Source: Phycisphaerae bacterium (GTDB taxonomy: Bacteria; Planctomycetota; Phycisphaerae; Phycisphaerales; Phycisphaeraceae). From it: DNA of 64,000 bases. The notes under the pieces were generated by a model. That model did no database searches and was not told the DNA's origin. It worked only from the letters and a program-made list of their open reading frames with translations. The stretch covers positions 1-64,000 of the forward strand of contig JAUIGU010000001.1 in assembly GCA_030432595.1 (NCBI GenBank), given 5' to 3'. The translations under genes were made by a program, and so were the position numbers. Of this stretch, positions 45,377 to 59,615 are shown one piece after another. Position 1 is the first letter of the stretch, and each line of letters begins with the position of its first letter.

Positions 45377-46579
45377 CTATGACCCCATCGGCAAAGCGCC
45401 CCGCAGCCGGCCCAAAACACGCTCCAACGCCACCACCGCCGCGTCGATCTCCGCTCCCGTGGTGGATCGGCTCAGGGAAAAACGCACCGACCCGTGCGCC
45501 ACTTCCTCCGGGATCCCCATCGCCCGCAGCACCGGCGACGGCTCGAGCGACCCGCTGCTGCACGCCGCGCCCGCCGAGGCGCACACGCCCAACTCGCTCA
45601 GCCCCAGCAGGATCGCCTCGGCCTCCAGCCGGGGGAAGCCTAGGTTGCTCGTGTTCCACAGCCGGCCGTGCCGCGCGTGCTCGGCGTTGACCACGACGTC
45701 GGGCGCGATGCGGCGAACGTCGCGTTCCAGGCGGTCACGCAACGCGAGCCCGGCCACGACCGCGCCGTCGTCGGCCACGAAGCGCCCCGCCAACTCCGCC
45801 GCCACGCCCATCCCGACGATGCCCGGCGTGTTCTCCGTGCCGCCGCGCCGCTCCGTCTCCTGCGGCCCGCCCCGTTGCCGCGGACGCAGCCGCAACCCGC
45901 GCTTCACGAACAACGCCCCGACGCCCTTGGGCCCGTGGAACTTGTGCGACGCCAGCGTGAGCAGATCCACCGCCACCGCCGACACGTCCACCGGCATCTT
46001 GCCCACCGCCTGCGTCGCATCCACATGCAGCAGCACGCGGTGCCGGCGGTCCGACGCACGGTTAATCTCCGCAATCGCCTCCGCCAACTCCGCGATCGGT
46101 TGAATCGTCCCGGTCTCGTTGTTCGCCCACTGCACGCTCACGAGCACCAGGCGGTCTTCGTCGCCGACCAGGCCCGGCAGCGCGTTGAGGTCGATCACGC
46201 CGTCGCCGTCCACCGGCAGCCACGCCACGCGGTTCCCGCCGAGCGCCGCGTCTTCCGCGGGCTCACGCACGGCGCTGTGCTCGACCTGGCTGGTGATGAG
46301 CGTGGCGTCGCCGGCCTGCGCCGCCTTGCCCAGCACGCCGTGGAGCGCGAGGTTGTTGGACTCGGTCCCGCCGGAGGTGAACACGAGGTCCGCCGGCCGG
46401 GCCCCGATCAGCCGCGCGACCTGCTGCCGGGCCAACTCGACGCGCTGGCGGACCTCCTGCCCGAAGCGGTGCACGCTGGACGGGTTGCCCCAGAGTTGCC
46501 GGTGGACCTCATCGACCGCGTCGCGGACTTCCGGTGCCGGCCGGGTCGTGGCGTTGTTGTCGAGGTAGCACAGGTCCAC
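45377..46579 (-). CDS. Cysteine desulfurase, NifS/IscS type
   Basis: A 400-residue PLP enzyme that takes sulfur from cysteine for Fe-S cluster and thiocofactor synthesis. It opens with CYLDNNATTRP and has TSGGTESNN, the PLP-binding Lys in SHKFHGPKG (near residue 212), and the catalytic Cys in SAGAACSSGSLEPS (near 338), the class I (NifS/IscS) arrangement. Length is normal. No scaffold or other isc gene is adjacent. The start is GTG, with TACACT 6 bases upstream and no ribosome site, again leaderless-like. Confidence 0.9.
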   Translation of the reverse strand: MDLCYLDNNATTRPAPEVRDAVDEVHRQLWGNPSSVHRFGQEVRQRVELARQQVARLIGARPADLVFTSGGTESNNLALHGVLGKAAQAGDATLITSQVEHSAVREPAEDAALGGNRVAWLPVDGDGVIDLNALPGLVGDEDRLVLVSVQWANNETGTIQPIAELAEAIAEINRASDRRHRVLLHVDATQAVGKMPVDVSAVAVDLLTLASHKFHGPKGVGALFVKRGLRLRPRQRGGPQETERRGGTENTPGIVGMGVAAELAGRFVADDGAVVAGLALRDRLERDVRRIAPDVVVNAEHARHGRLWNTSNLGFPRLEAEAILLGLSELGVCASAGAACSSGSLEPSPVLRAMGIPEEVAHGSVRFSLSRSTTGAEIDAAVVALERVLGRLRGALPMGS

Positions 46580-54224: not shown

Positions 54225-55436
54225 ATGCCGCGCCTCTACCTCGACAACGCCGCGACGAGTTTCCCCAAGCCGCCCGCGGTGCTGGACGCGATGACGCGTT
54301 ACGCGACGGAGTTGGGCGCGTCGCCGGGGCGCGGCGGGTACGCCGAGGCGCGCGAGGCGGCGGAGCTCATGCAGCGGTGCCGGGAGCGGATCAACACGCT
54401 GATCGGCGGGGCGTCGCCGGACAACGTCGTCTTCACGCTCAACACGTCTGACGCGCTGAACCTCGCGATCCGCGGCGTCGTGCTCAAGCACCCGGGCAAG
54501 CGGCGGCACGTGATCACGACCGACCTGGACCACAACTCGGTGCTGCGGCCGTTCAACACACTGTGTGACGCCGACGCGACCATCACGCAGACGCGCGTGC
54601 CTTGTGACCCCGAGACCGGCCTGGTCGATCCGGAGGACATCGCCCGCGCGATCACGCCGGACACTGTGCTCGTCGCCGTGGTGCACGGCAGCAACGTCAC
54701 GGGAACGGTTCAACCGGTGCGGCAGATCGGTCGGGTGTGCCGGGAGCACGCGGTGCCTTTCCTGGTCGACGCGGCGCAGACGGTCGGGCATCTTCCGTTG
54801 GACGTGGACGCGGACCACATCGACCTGCTCGCCGCGCCGGGGCACAAGGGGCTGCTCGGGCCGTTGGGCACGGGCTTTCTCTATATCCGGCCGGGGCTCG
54901 AGCGGCACATGGTCACCGTGCGCGAGGGCGGGACCGGGTCGATCTCCGAACACGACACGCAGCCGGACTTCATGCCCGACCGGTTCGAGCCCGGCTCACA
55001 CAACGCGATCGGGCTCATCGGCCTCAGCGAAGGTGTGCAATACATCCTCGATCGCGGCATCGAAGAACTGTGGAAACACGAGCAACAACTGATTGCCACG
55101 ATGCTCGAAGGCTTGTCGCCGATCGACGGTTTGCGGTTGCTGGGCCCGCCGGGCGTCGCGGATCGGTGCGGGGTGTTCTCGGTGCGTCTACCGGGGTTTG
55201 CCGAGCCGGAGCACGGCCCGCAACAACTGTCGGATGCGCTCGAGCGTGAGTTCGGCATCCTCACGCGGTCGGGCATCCACTGTGCGCCGCACGCCCACCG
55301 GACGATGCGCACGCACCTGGACGGCGGGGCGACGCGGATGTCGTTGGGGCCGTTCGTTTCGTTGCAGGATGTGAAGTACGCGACGGACGCGCTGGCGCAC
55401 CTGGCAGAACAAAGCGCGGTCGGTGCGGCACGCTGA
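54225..55436 (+). CDS. Class V aminotransferase, cysteine desulfurase-like (class II)
   Basis: A 403-residue PLP enzyme related to CsdA/SufS: LYLDNAATSFPKP at the start, TLNTSDALNLAI, the PLP Lys in APGHKGLLGPLGTG (near residue 207), and a Cys in RSGIHCAPHAHRT (near 352) at the position of the SufS catalytic Cys. It thus has the residues for sulfur mobilisation, but members of this subgroup may act on other amino acids. TACACT ends 8 bases before the ATG, leaderless-like. This is the second desulfurase-like gene in the window; its class differs from the IscS type at 45377. Confidence 0.8.
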   Translation: MPRLYLDNAATSFPKPPAVLDAMTRYATELGASPGRGGYAEAREAAELMQRCRERINTLIGGASPDNVVFTLNTSDALNLAIRGVVLKHPGKRRHVITTDLDHNSVLRPFNTLCDADATITQTRVPCDPETGLVDPEDIARAITPDTVLVAVVHGSNVTGTVQPVRQIGRVCREHAVPFLVDAAQTVGHLPLDVDADHIDLLAAPGHKGLLGPLGTGFLYIRPGLERHMVTVREGGTGSISEHDTQPDFMPDRFEPGSHNAIGLIGLSEGVQYILDRGIEELWKHEQQLIATMLEGLSPIDGLRLLGPPGVADRCGVFSVRLPGFAEPEHGPQQLSDALEREFGILTRSGIHCAPHAHRTMRTHLDGGATRMSLGPFVSLQDVKYATDALAHLAEQSAVGAAR

Positions 55437-55677: not shown

Positions 55678-56919
55678 CTAAGGCCCGCTCGTCGTATTGG
55701 TCTCCGCCGTCATGCGCACGAGGGCTTCGTGGACTTGCTGGTTGGTCAGCGCCAGCACGCCGACGCGTTCGGGGCGGGCGATGTTGAGGCCGAGCACGTT
55801 GCCGTCGAGCGACACGACCGGGCCGCCGCAGGACGACGGGGCGATCCGCGCGTCGTGCTGGAACGCGTCGGGGAAGCCGGAGCGTCGCCGGCTGAGCGGG
55901 CCCGACGCCTCGTTCATCCGGCCGGAACGGTTGTCGGGTCGGTCCGGGCCGACGCCCAGGACGATCTTGAGTTCGAGTTGGGTTTCGGGTTGGTCGGTCT
56001 GCGCGGCGCCGCCTCGGCGGATGGTGACGGCGACGGCGTCGCCGGCGAGTTTGTCGGACAGGGCTTCGACCACTTCGAGCGGCGTGGGCGTGGGTGTGCC
56101 GTCCACGGAGACCAGCACGTCGCCGGTGCGCAGCCCCGCCAGCGCCGCGCCCGACTCGGGCTGAACGAAACGCACCAAAGGACGCACCGACCCGGACGCG
56201 AAGAACACGCCCATTCTCGCGCGGGACTTGATCGGCCGCGGCGCGGCGCTGACCACGCCGACCGCCAACACCCCGCCGGTCCTTCGTTGCAGCGCGGTGC
56301 CGAAGCCGGGAACCACGGCCCACGGCCCCGGCGACATCGACACCACCGGCCGGACGCGGGCCAGCTCCAATGACGTGTCGTCGGGCGCTGGTTCGTCGGA
56401 CGCCGCGGCGGCGTGCCACGTGACGCCCCAATGCACATACGGCCACGGCTCGAGCGGCGCGGCGGCTTTCAAAAGCGCCAAATCCGTTTCGCGGTCCACG
56501 CCCACAACCAACGTCGGCCAGCGCGTGCCGTCCTGCCGGACGCAGAGCACGCCGCCGGGCGGTTGCGTGATTTGAGTTTGATCTTCGGCCGGTCGGACGG
56601 ACGCCGCGCCACGGAAGACCTCGCTGGCTTTGGTGACCACCCAGCCGTCGGGCGACACGACGCAGCCCAGCGCGGCGCGCTCGCCGGCGACGCGCACCTC
56701 GACGACGGCGGGCGTGATGGTCTTGACTGCGGGAACGAAGGCCGCGCGGAACGTGTCGCCTTCTTTGGCGTGAGTCCGGGGCAGGTATGACTCGGCGTAC
56801 ACGGGTGACGTGAGAAACAGCGCGAGCAACAACAACGAAGGCAGGGTGATCGTCGGGCGGCGCGCGGGCCGTTGGCCCGCGGCTGACCAGCACGGGTTTT
56901 GGTGGAGGTTACGAGTCAT
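55678..56919 (-). CDS. Catalytically dead HtrA-like protein with PDZ inside the protease fold
   Basis: A 413-residue exported protein. The N-terminal half is trypsin-like (VVEVRVAGERAALGCVVSPDGWVVTKASEVF) but where HtrA proteins have the catalytic His it has TKASEV. The Asp motif (DRETDLALLK) is present. A PDZ domain (about 220-310, RFVQPESGAALAGLRTGDVLVSVDG) follows, and only then comes the Ser-motif region, which reads SSCGGPVVSLDG: Cys replaces the Ser. The start overlaps the end of the HtrA-type gene by 11 bases (same operon), so it may regulate or help that protease. Confidence 0.75.
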   Translation of the reverse strand: MTRNLHQNPCWSAAGQRPARRPTITLPSLLLLALFLTSPVYAESYLPRTHAKEGDTFRAAFVPAVKTITPAVVEVRVAGERAALGCVVSPDGWVVTKASEVFRGAASVRPAEDQTQITQPPGGVLCVRQDGTRWPTLVVGVDRETDLALLKAAAPLEPWPYVHWGVTWHAAAASDEPAPDDTSLELARVRPVVSMSPGPWAVVPGFGTALQRRTGGVLAVGVVSAAPRPIKSRARMGVFFASGSVRPLVRFVQPESGAALAGLRTGDVLVSVDGTPTPTPLEVVEALSDKLAGDAVAVTIRRGGAAQTDQPETQLELKIVLGVGPDRPDNRSGRMNEASGPLSRRRSGFPDAFQHDARIAPSSCGGPVVSLDGNVLGLNIARPERVGVLALTNQQVHEALVRMTAETNTTSGP

Positions 56920-57940
56920 CCTGGTTTTCGTCGGGCGCGGTCCAGCGGATCGGGCGGGCGTCGAGGGTGACGGTGAGGTCCATGTCCTGCCCGCGTCGGC
57001 GGACGCGCAGCGACACCGCGTCGCCGTCGCGGCGCGGGGCGAGGAAGCTGTCCAGCGGCCGGCCTGGACCGAGCGTCTCGCCGTTGAAGGCGACGATGAT
57101 GTCGCCGCGCGTCAGGCCCGCGGCAGCGGCGGGCGAGTCGGGTTCGACGGCCCCGACGCGGAAGCCGGTGAGGGTGTCGCGGCCGACCGCGCCCAGCCGC
57201 GCCGCGGCGCGGCCGCCGCGGGCGAGCGCCGACCACTGCGCGGCGTAGCGCGCGACGGGGACGTGGAAGTTGACGCTGGGCGACGAGCCGATGCGGGTGT
57301 GGATGCCGATGACGCGCCCGTCGAGGTCGAGCAGGGGCCCGCCGGAGTCGCCGGCGATGAGGGCGGCGTCGGTGCGGAGGTCGCCGCCGAAGCCGTCCTG
57401 GCCTTCGACGCCGCCGATGTCGACGCCGGTGACGCGTCCGACGCGCACGACGACCGGGCGGTCGGCGTCGTATCCGCCAGGGTGCCCGAGGGCGACGACG
57501 AAGTCGCCGGGTTGAGGGCCGCGCGGTTCATTCTCGGCTTCGGAGTGGTTCTGGTGCGACGCGACGGGGGCGTGCGGCCAGGGCCCGGGGCCGACCATCT
57601 GGAGCATTCCGCAGTCGGTCTTGCCTTCGAGGCCGAGCGTCTCGGCAGCGGCGACGGAGCCGTCGGCGAAGTGGACGGCGGCGCGCTGGCCGGGCGCGCC
57701 GGTGACGTGGGCGACCGAGAGCACGAGGCCGTCGGCGCTGACGATGACGCCGCTGCCGGTGCCGTCGCCGATCTGGATGGCGACGGTGGCGGGCGCCACT
57801 TTTTCGACGACGGCCTGGATGCGTTGTTCGATTTCGCGGAGGGCTTGGAGCGAAAGCTTTTCGTCTTCCGCGGACACGGACGGCACGGTGGCGATCCAGG
57901 TCAGCACGAAAAGACCAACGCGATGACGGAGCTTCCTCAC
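56909..57940 (-). CDS. HtrA/DegP-type serine protease with PDZ domain
   Basis: A 343-residue envelope protease. The signal peptide (RKLRHRVGLFVLTWIATVPSVSA) precedes a trypsin-like domain with complete triad: His in LVLSVAHVTG, Asp in GKTDCGMLQM and Ser in AGDSGGPLLDL. One PDZ domain follows (FRVGAVEPDSPAAAAGLTRGDIIVAFNG). It should degrade or refold misfolded exported proteins. GTG 57940 is chosen because TATGAT lies exactly 6 bases upstream and the signal peptide starts there; TTG 58018 is the longer alternative. The pseudo-protease gene overlaps its end. Confidence 0.8.
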   Translation of the reverse strand: MRKLRHRVGLFVLTWIATVPSVSAEDEKLSLQALREIEQRIQAVVEKVAPATVAIQIGDGTGSGVIVSADGLVLSVAHVTGAPGQRAAVHFADGSVAAAETLGLEGKTDCGMLQMVGPGPWPHAPVASHQNHSEAENEPRGPQPGDFVVALGHPGGYDADRPVVVRVGRVTGVDIGGVEGQDGFGGDLRTDAALIAGDSGGPLLDLDGRVIGIHTRIGSSPSVNFHVPVARYAAQWSALARGGRAAARLGAVGRDTLTGFRVGAVEPDSPAAAAGLTRGDIIVAFNGETLGPGRPLDSFLAPRRDGDAVSLRVRRRGQDMDLTVTLDARPIRWTAPDENQDDS

Positions 57941-58055: not shown

Positions 58056-59615
58056 TCAACGCATCACGGCCGTAACGCGTTGGGCGGTGCGTAGTGCGGC
58101 GGCGTCGAGCGTGTGGCCGTACGGGTCCAGGGCGTTGAGGTAGACCTGTTCGCAGGGCAGGCGTTCGGCGACGCGGTGGGCGGCGCTCAGGTCGCGCGTG
58201 TAGACGCCGGCGGCGGGGCAGGGCGCGGCGTCGGCGGCGTTGGCGTGCATCAGGTCCTGCGCGGCGGCGACGAGTTCGGCCGAGGTGTCGTGCACCGTGA
58301 CGGCCAGCAGCGGCCCGACGACGGCGCGGCGGACGGCCGGGCATTGCCGGTCGGCGGTCTCGAAGACCCGCGGGTGGACGACGCCGCCTTCGTCCGGCGG
58401 CGCGTCGGCGGGGTTGTCGACGTCGGCGACGACGCGGCGGCCGCCGTGGCCCAGGCAGCGCTGCGCGATCCACCGCGCGTACTCGGCGCGGCCGGTCGCG
58501 ATCATCGGACCCAGCACCGTGCCGGCTCGCGTGGGATCGCCGGCGACGCGGTCGGCGGACACTTCACCCAGGCGCGCGAGGAACGCGTCGGCGACCGGCG
58601 CGGCGACCAGCACGCGTGACGCGGAACGACGCAGTTGACCTGCGAACGCGAACGCGGCGTCGGCGGCTTGTTCCGCCGCGGTTTCCGGGTTGGCGTCGCC
58701 GAGCACGAGCGTCGGGCACAGCCCGCCGGTGTCCGCGATGACCGGCACGCCCGCCGGCGCCGCGGTGGCACGGACCTGCGCCAATGTCTCGCGCCGGCCG
58801 GTGAAGACCACCCCGTCGATGCTTTGGTGAGACACCAGCGCCGCGCCACACTCGGCCGGGCCGGGCAGGATGTTCAGCACGCCCGCGGGCAGCCCGGCCT
58901 CGGCGGCGACCGCGCCCAGCCGCAGCGTCAGCAGTGACGCCTCAGGCGCGGGCTTGGCCACCAGCGTGCACCCGGCCATCCACGCCGAACCCCACGCCCA
59001 CGCCGCGTCCAGCAGCGGCGACTGCCACGACGTCACCGCCGCGACCACGCCGCGCGGCCGGGCGCGCTCCAGCGTCCACGCGCCGCGGCCGGCCCGGCCC
59101 TGCGCCGTGTCGCCCATCGCGCCCACGCCCTGCGCCGCGAGCTCGCGCAGCGTCGCCACCGCGCGCGGCAGCTCGGTGTGCAGCGTCTGGTTCAGCGGCC
59201 GGCCCGTGTCGCGCGCCTCCAGCAGCGCCAACTCGCCCGAGCGCGTCTCGATCAATTCGGCAAACTTGAAGAGCACCTGCGCCCGCCGCCCCGCCGACAT
59301 GCCCGGCCAGGCCCCGGCCTCGAGCGCCCGCCGTGCCGTGAAGACCGCGCGATCGATCTCGCGCTCGCCGCACTCGGCGACCTGAGCCAGTACGCGCCCG
59401 GTCCACGGGTCCACCGCGGGGAAGGTCGCGCCGGTGGCGGCGAAGACGGCCCGGCCGTCGATCCACGCGCCGCGCAGCAGGCCGTCGCGCGACTGAGAAC
59501 CTGGCCCCTCCGTGGACCCGCCGGGTTCTCGGACGTCACCCAACCGGGCCCGGACCGGCCGGACCAATTTGCCTTGCTCACGGGACGACTCTCGGCGCTT
59601 CAGCGTCGGACTCAT
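58056..59615 (-). CDS. Pseudo-aldehyde dehydrogenase
   Basis: A 519-residue protein with the full ALDH fold (WPGMSAGRRAQVLFKFAELIE, VVAAVTSWQSPLL, VVFTGRRETLAQV, TVLGPMIATGRAEY). Key residues are changed: the oxyanion Asn of xxWN is Gln (SWQSP, near residue 196), the general-base Glu of LELGG is Asp in ADTGGLCP (near 297), and the catalytic Cys position in GQxCxA reads GQLRRSASR (near 328), giving Arg. Chemistry of the normal kind is therefore unlikely; a structural or binding role is inferred. AGGGAG lies 6 bases before the ATG. The N-terminal 45 residues are Arg-rich and absent from typical ALDHs. Confidence 0.75.
   Translation of the reverse strand: MSPTLKRRESSREQGKLVRPVRARLGDVREPGGSTEGPGSQSRDGLLRGAWIDGRAVFAATGATFPAVDPWTGRVLAQVAECGEREIDRAVFTARRALEAGAWPGMSAGRRAQVLFKFAELIETRSGELALLEARDTGRPLNQTLHTELPRAVATLRELAAQGVGAMGDTAQGRAGRGAWTLERARPRGVVAAVTSWQSPLLDAAWAWGSAWMAGCTLVAKPAPEASLLTLRLGAVAAEAGLPAGVLNILPGPAECGAALVSHQSIDGVVFTGRRETLAQVRATAAPAGVPVIADTGGLCPTLVLGDANPETAAEQAADAAFAFAGQLRRSASRVLVAAPVADAFLARLGEVSADRVAGDPTRAGTVLGPMIATGRAEYARWIAQRCLGHGGRRVVADVDNPADAPPDEGGVVHPRVFETADRQCPAVRRAVVGPLLAVTVHDTSAELVAAAQDLMHANAADAAPCPAAGVYTRDLSAAHRVAERLPCEQVYLNALDPYGHTLDAAALRTAQRVTAVMR

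Follow-up and report, generated by a model that had tools for sequence, protein, structure and literature searches.

Why would a bacterium encode, in overlap with a complete HtrA protease, a second HtrA-like protein that has lost catalytic residues and carries its PDZ domain inside the protease fold? The question is raised by two genes on the minus strand of the 64,000-nucleotide stretch of Phycisphaerae bacterium DNA analyzed here (hereafter, the window). We found that the pair represents a real, conserved HtrA variant that is so far undescribed within the searchable open-access literature: no description of an HtrA pair with a nested PDZ was found in open-access titles and abstracts, subscription papers and supplements lying outside that scope. 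Below, we describe the two proteins, their family, their pairing and the position of the nested domain, and then weigh how the pair might work. Handles starting with L, G and f denote our loci, genomes and families.

An Active Protease and an Overlapping Dead Relative

The two genes and their main features are as follows.

56909–57940, minus strand: active HtrA-type protease, 343 amino acids, GTG start at 57940 (open reading frame and Pfam)
57707–57709, minus strand: catalytic His78 (SVAHV) of the active protease (counted on the translation; column match in the partner alignment)
57614–57616, minus strand: catalytic Asp109 (KTDCG) of the active protease (translation and alignment)
57344–57346, minus strand: catalytic Ser199 (GDSGGP), codon TCC, of the active protease (translation and alignment)
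56963–57196, minus strand: C-terminal PDZ of the active protease, amino acids 249–326 (Pfam PDZ_2)
56909–56919, minus strand: gene overlap of 11 nucleotides, HtrA stop and pseudoprotease ATG (sequence)
55678–56919, minus strand: pseudoprotease, 413 amino acids, ATG at 56919, PDZ nested in the protease fold (open reading frame, Pfam and family alignment)
56620–56634, minus strand: TKASE motif, amino acids 96–100, with Ser99 at the catalytic-His position and Lys97 invariant in the family (translation and family alignment)
56482–56484, minus strand: Asp146 (ETDLALL), the retained catalytic-Asp position (translation and family alignment)
56236–56238, minus strand: Arg228, matching the L3 arginine of HtrA (profile alignment)
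55879–56235, minus strand: insert in loop L3, amino acids 229–347, with the PDZ and a conserved LSxRR linker; boundaries approximate (alignment)
55996–56217, minus strand: nested PDZ, amino acids 235–308 (PDZ_2, E 1e-8; PDZ_6, E 9e-9)
55828–55830, minus strand: Cys364 replacing the nucleophilic Ser (SSCGGP), codon TGC (translation and family alignment)

The upstream protein consists of a hydrophobic N-terminal stretch, a trypsin domain and a C-terminal PDZ (Pfam Trypsin_2, E 3.5e-18; PDZ_2, E 1.6e-10). It thus has what defines an HtrA (S1C) protease, a trypsin-like domain with the His-Asp-Ser triad and at least one C-terminal PDZ, and the sequence-only reading was right to call it a complete HtrA. 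A TTG start 78 nucleotides further upstream is possible. The protein did not reach a named HtrA subfamily (113 bits with NCBIfam TIGR02037 against a cut-off of 416.2), and among the matches listed none of the five proteins tried reached an NCBIfam cut-off.

The downstream protein is homologous to HtrA over both protease halves but has neither the full triad nor a C-terminal PDZ. Its start falls inside the last codons of the active gene (ATGACTCGTAA), and its TKAS stands where HtrA has T-x-A-H. The Pfam Trypsin_2 match is broken into two stretches, the best of which (amino acids 85–228) covers only positions 3–108 of the 144 in the profile, and the PDZ_2 match precedes the CGGP segment; beyond these, no Pfam domain scored above cut-off. 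The nested domain qualifies as a PDZ by its fold match and its hydrophobic-Gly-hydrophobic carboxylate loop. An overlapping gene, a missing catalytic His (TKASEV), Cys in place of Ser and a PDZ between the Asp half and the Ser half of the trypsin fold had all been claimed from the sequence alone, and all four were borne out; the retained catalytic Asp is a detail absent from that account. Both pair members begin with a hydrophobic stretch that by eye resembles a signal peptide, and both are therefore probably secreted.

The Dead Residues Are Conserved throughout the Family

We counted 91 homologous reading frames with a best domain of at least 90 bits (L007 and L056 are the same locus), nearly all of them from genomes of the window's phylum, probably the Planctomycetota. 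As L114 lacks the first protease half and L133 the last, each half is represented by 90 rows. In the first search, 15 of 61 genomes had matches, that of the window being one of them, and some matches covered the PDZ only. When a profile was run over 392 genomes from the phylum, 88 matched at 1e-20, and in 70 of them the best match was 1.4e-36 or better. A scan of contigs by peptide patterns of the window protein, not a sensitive test, returned only one relative, from an uncultured Pirellulaceae bacterium of the Planctomycetota (L024, genome G429). Equally insensitive scans found no homologue in viral contigs and one partial match among plasmids, covering 32% of a homologue, in Prevotella. Several copies may occur in one genome: G429 has three nested-PDZ pseudoproteases, and G213 and a few others have two each.

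In the family alignment, identity to the first row was 28–45%, and 67% for one close row, and 19 columns were invariant across 17 diverse rows. The His motif reads Lys-x-Ser in 90/90 rows and the catalytic Asp is kept in 90/90, as is the Gly of the PDZ ligand loop (carboxylate loop). The nucleophile position holds Ser in none of the 90 rows, being Cys in 60, Gln in 12, Met in 8, Val in 4, Ile in 3 and Ala, Thr and Phe in 1 each. The alignment thus shows a family-wide loss of two triad residues in the pseudoprotease; had homologues of the second protein kept the triad, the sequence-only reading would have lost its ground, and not one of them does. As the half-PDZ-half order, the dead residues and the pairing with an active protease recur in homologues, the arrangement is not due to chance.

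The number of nested domains varies. Profile matches indicated two PDZs in the insert at 17 loci and four at two loci (L121 and L134), under family codes f30 and f83. These loci with two to four tandem PDZs in the L3 insert are L115–L118 and L120–L134, and many of them have extra PDZs between the active and dead halves.

The Pseudoprotease Is Paired with an Active Protease

In 42 of the 91 rows, the pseudoprotease carries the active protease as an N-terminal fusion. In another 40, the two are separate genes on one strand, the active protease being the nearest such gene upstream and the stop-to-stop frames lying -200 to 70 nucleotides apart. Where visible (L009 begins inside the partner), the partner's triad was intact: His in 81/81, Asp in 81/81 and Ser in 82/82. 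No partner was nearby in nine rows. Two of these, L106 and L114, are interrupted by a contig end or a broken frame. At all seven other loci, the genome encodes a partner elsewhere, matching the partner profile at 230–273 bits over the whole domain, whereas 115 bits was the highest score in 14 genomes that lack the pseudoprotease, taken from the top of the list of those with no match.

Across the 392 genomes, we computed co-occurrence from best matches at 1.4e-36 or better, setting aside the 18 of 88 genomes with partial matches. A partner at E ≤ 1e-37 was present in 67 of the 70 pseudoprotease genomes. Of the other three, G413 has a fusion with an intact partner, and G409 and G390 are cut by contig ends or have a broken frame. 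The Fisher value of 1e-56 is overstated as the genomes are related. By these comparisons, the pairing of an active HtrA with the pseudoprotease is well supported, and the heteromeric complex that had been suggested from the gene overlap gains support from the fusions, the adjacent genes and the unlinked partners.

The gene neighborhood was considered as a further clue to function and rejected: the 10 neighbors compared at nine loci, the window included, share no common family, and two of them match nothing.

The Nested PDZ Sits in Loop L3

For locating the insert, a profile of 17 diverse family members (A1) was run against solved HtrA structures. The alignment to a DegP-like chain (22kg_A) was noncollinear: profile positions 33–134 fell on residues 95–200 and positions 249–303 on 205–264, and the PDZ part of the profile (136–220) aligned to residues 270–365. 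The corresponding break in DegQ (4a8a) falls between residues 164 and 171. Judging by the position of the break in the solved chains, the insert takes the place of some four to six residues within a single loop. The insert begins directly after a position that is Arg in 58/91 rows and Tyr in 21/91 of the profile alignment. We take the aligned column to be that of DegS Arg178 and HtrA1 Arg302, and by the aligned motif and this numbering the insert-bearing loop is HtrA loop L3.

Published statements on this and other systems are given here as they stand in excerpts of the cited papers. L3 of DegS spans residues 176–189; its PDZ signals to L3, and Arg178 of L3 contacts the LD loop of the adjacent subunit (PMC11642142). 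HtrA1 loses its activity without Arg302, the residue that acts on LD of the adjoining monomer (PMC5666011).

Two single-chain fold predictions were made, for the window pseudoprotease and the L024 homologue, each from a seven-row alignment that included fragments of two active HtrAs and may thus pull the model toward HtrA. Mean predicted local distance difference test (pLDDT) values of 56 and 60, respectively, mark both as weak models. In the L024 model the PDZ was mostly confident (77–96 per block), the N-terminal half middling and the C-terminal half poor. In VIA-align, residues 1–304 of this low-confidence model superposed on DegS without its PDZ (3lgt) with Z 15.1 and a root-mean-square deviation (rmsd) of 3.5 over 160 aligned residues, and residues 130–221 on the PDZ of Streptococcus pneumoniae HtrA (9pno) with Z 14.8 and an rmsd of 1.9 over 91. 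Foldseek TM-scores were low (about 0.25–0.30 by query length) and the top VIA rows had rmsd near 10, which is the pattern that a rearranged domain order would give. The L024 model lends weak support to a PDZ inside one protease fold and leaves its orientation undefined. A PDZ outside the fold, the outcome that would speak against the original claim, is not what we see: the sequence alignment, and weakly also the fold model, put it inside.

Opposite Loop-Length Changes in Most Pairs

We compared the lengths of loops L3 and LD in the two subunits. The L3 span runs between the Gly that precedes the loop and the Asp that follows, and its value depends on alignment to a short-L3 profile. It was 13 in 49 of the active partners and 16 or less in 72/81, and the unlinked partners had a span of 13 in 7/7. 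In comparison, 15 ordinary or other HtrA-like proteins had L3 spans of 13–26, with a median of 19. The LD span was 23 in 76/81 active partners and 23–28 in the ordinary proteins, and only 16 in 78/90 pseudoproteases. For most pairs, the alignments show an active partner with LD retained and L3 much reduced, and a dead partner with a trimmed LD and a PDZ-loaded L3. Reciprocal loop loss as a universal rule was rejected, as the window pair is excepted and 9/81 partners, the window's included, have L3 spans above 16.

A Single Clade and Its Sister Group

The tree was built from the protease halves only, with the insert excluded, by a careful method on 75 of 141 rows, chosen by manual removal of eight rows that had long branches or were odd and by even thinning of the remainder. 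The nested-PDZ pseudoproteases formed one clade (99/94), and so did all active partners (98/92). The latter split into partners of nested-PDZ proteins, the unlinked ones included (99/95), and partners from a sister group (94/59). With these matching clade splits, the two halves of the pair show parallel splits. A quick tree of all 141 rows was slightly less clean, the nested-PDZ group requiring two changes instead of one.

The sister group comprises 15 loci (L188–L198, L200–L202 and L204) that combine an active HtrA with a dead HtrA whose PDZ, where seen, is C-terminal. It overlaps with 15 genomes that have a partner-like protein and no nested-PDZ protein: among the 13 of these looked at, 12 had a different dead HtrA, fused or adjacent, with a C-terminal PDZ in 11 (L197 is cut before it), and at L199 no dead partner was found within the 3.5 kb examined. 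Over the 15 sister-group loci, the active protease is fused or adjacent in 14, L201 being cut by a contig end, and the PDZ follows the protease halves in 13, L197 being cut before the PDZ and L202 having none. By eye, the nucleophile position of the dead partners is Phe in 11, Leu in 2, Tyr in 1 and Met in 1, and the His is kept in 3. By eye, their L3 is also enlarged, containing some 25–30 residues that often include a GLFGMFG-like motif, or a longer insert in L202. The sister group thus shares with the nested-PDZ pairs the fused or adjacent active and dead HtrAs and the enlarged L3 of the dead one, but it has no PDZ in L3 and the L3 of its active partners is long (span 24–31 in 15/15, L199 included).

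Two loci deserve separate mention. The fusion at L202:978-3122 has TKAS and Met at the dead sites and an L3 insert without a PDZ, helical by eye, and is placed as sister to the nested-PDZ clade (98/81). At L015:286-1710, in a relative of the window's genome, an HtrA-like protein of the usual domain order has Tyr for the catalytic Ser (ANYGGP).

A Possible Division of Sensing and Cutting

What could such a pair do? We give even odds to an obligate heteromer of the HtrA type: its dead subunit, equipped with the PDZ and L3, would act on the LD loop of the active subunit and thereby switch it. The two proteins would be subunits of one secreted HtrA-type complex that divides catalysis and sensing between them. 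Association in the manner of HtrA would put L3 of the dead subunit opposite LD of the active one. A peptide, perhaps an exposed C terminus by analogy with DegS/DegP, would bind the nested PDZ, and the peptide-bound domain would move L3 of the dead subunit and so switch the activation domain of its neighbor. In HtrA homotrimers every subunit sends (PDZ–L3) and receives (LD); here, the dead one would send and the active one receive, a relay that we infer. The site-specific part, the PDZ in L3 and the reciprocal loop loss in most pairs, goes beyond the sequence-only reading, which had the dead partner sense or present substrate.

In its full form, which we hold at a probability of about 0.42, the proposal is a protease with split allostery. 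The PDZ–L3–LD relay of HtrA would have been broken into a dead, PDZ-bearing sender, with the PDZ moved into L3 and LD trimmed, and a catalytic receiver, with L3 trimmed and LD kept; the genes would have been repeatedly fused or unlinked, and in some chains the sender loop would hold as many as four PDZs, or three protease-like domains would make up a covalent trimer. Three-domain chains of this kind were seen at L112:4366-6876 and L119:4405-6855 (f32), where only the middle domain has the triad, the first dead domain being judged by eye and the last by residue counts. They are as expected of a covalent trimer, which is only suggestive.

Several observations weigh against such a division of roles. 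The window's own pair breaks the reciprocity on both sides, with an active L3 span of 23 and a pseudoprotease LD span of 23, the only such LD among the 90. Three of the 15 ordinary or other HtrA-like proteins also have an L3 span of 13, and the measure is rough. Of the 21 rows with Tyr at the L3-Arg position, 16 are tandem-PDZ forms. Judged by profile matches, 40 of the 42 fusions seem to have a 1:1 composition, which does not suit a simple threefold HtrA trimer. The separate active partners, the window's included, retain their own C-terminal PDZ, while in several fusions the active half has none; sensing has thus not moved wholly to the dead chain, and the active subunit may also sense. Furthermore, 15 genomes encode a partner-like protein (131–146 bits) and no nested-PDZ protein, and the single-chain fold models, at the pLDDT values given above, are weak.

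The alternative that fares best is substrate delivery. Here, the complex forms but the nested PDZ, or the two to four of them in some chains, only captures substrate tails for the active site, and no L3–LD relay exists. The conserved ligand loop, the PDZs retained by separate partners and the insert arrays of two domains at 17 loci and four at two, such as a capture device might have, would fit this. Capture alone, however, does not require that the insert lie at L3 in the aligned members of one clade, nor that the loops of the two subunits change length in opposite directions in most pairs, and we regard this explanation as unlikely.

Dead homologues often serve as regulators, and the pseudoprotease could be a built-in inhibitor that holds the active subunit off until a ligand of the nested PDZ releases it. 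A natural 1:1 fusion would ensure constant restraint, and the PDZ of DegS, when no ligand is bound, inhibits by way of L3 (PMC11642142). On the other hand, we saw no inhibitory segment. The anatomy is the same as in our leading explanation, from which inhibition differs mainly in sign, and the sign of regulation is unreadable from sequence; we consider the inhibitor quite unlikely.

The identity of the Lys, Ser and Asp in all 90 rows, while the old nucleophile varies freely, could also mean that the protein is repurposed and not dead, the three residues forming a new active or ligand site. They may just as well only pack the disused site, and we know of no nameable chemistry with such spacing, which makes this very improbable. 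Finally, a decaying, functionless duplicate of the upstream HtrA would explain the tandem position and the loss of two triad residues, but we rejected it with next to no probability left, given one clade conserved over many families with its dead residues fixed and its invariant columns, and the co-occurrence with the partner even when unlinked.

In HtrA proteases, sensing and cutting are done by the same subunits, which makes it difficult to take apart how a signal passes from one to the next. If the roles sit on different chains, as they seem to in this pair, the steps could be studied one at a time, with fused, adjacent and unlinked forms available within a single phylum. The family is also a case of a domain inserted at an allosteric loop, and of a dead enzyme retained with its active twin over many families.

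Comparison with Known Systems

The closest working likeness is MamE/MamO of magnetotactic bacteria, an HtrA protease and a dead relative from one genomic region (PMC4794232). MamO is needed for MamE proteolysis, which it promotes through its C-terminal transporter (TauE) domain; its protease domain binds metal and contains His116 and Asp149, the Ser being replaced by Thr (PMC4794232). No nested PDZ is mentioned for MamO in the excerpted text (PMC4794232). With the NCBIfam MamO model, which has a cut-off of 800 bits, the window's active protease scored 31.5 and three homologues 18–62, and the model was not among the matches listed for the window pseudoprotease. The window pair has the MamO-type arrangement of a degenerate HtrA relative encoded with an active HtrA and lacks both the match to the model and the C-terminal transporter domain: the likeness is one of function, not of descent.

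The homo-oligomeric DegS and DegP of Escherichia coli draw on the same protease and PDZ families, but each is encoded by a single gene with C-terminal PDZ and all subunits are catalytic (PMC11642142), whereas sender and receiver would here mostly be on different chains. Human HtrA1 has L3-to-LD communication between monomers and the conserved Arg302 of L3 in common with the proposed relay; it differs as a homotrimer with PDZ-independent activation and a PDZ outside the fold (PMC5666011). Plant Deg5 and Deg8 are likewise two HtrA paralogues in one compartment, one of them without a PDZ, but both have the full triad and the excerpt describes no nested PDZ (PMC3640471).

Other Features of the Window

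An aldehyde dehydrogenase gene (58056–59615, minus strand; Pfam Aldedh) lies immediately upstream of the pair and shares its strand; none was seen among the neighbors tried at eight other loci. Between 326 and 24000 and between 29011 and 30861 (plus strand), many large open reading frames have a C terminus of the VPEP type, preceded by a repeated dockerin-like stretch (GDYNGSGQVEQGDLDLVLQNWG...LDGVLLNWG). These ends resemble those of PEP-CTERM-sorted proteins. Two further open reading frames, at 45377–46579 (minus strand) and 54225–55436 (plus strand), resemble by eye NifS-like aminotransferases/cysteine desulfurases.

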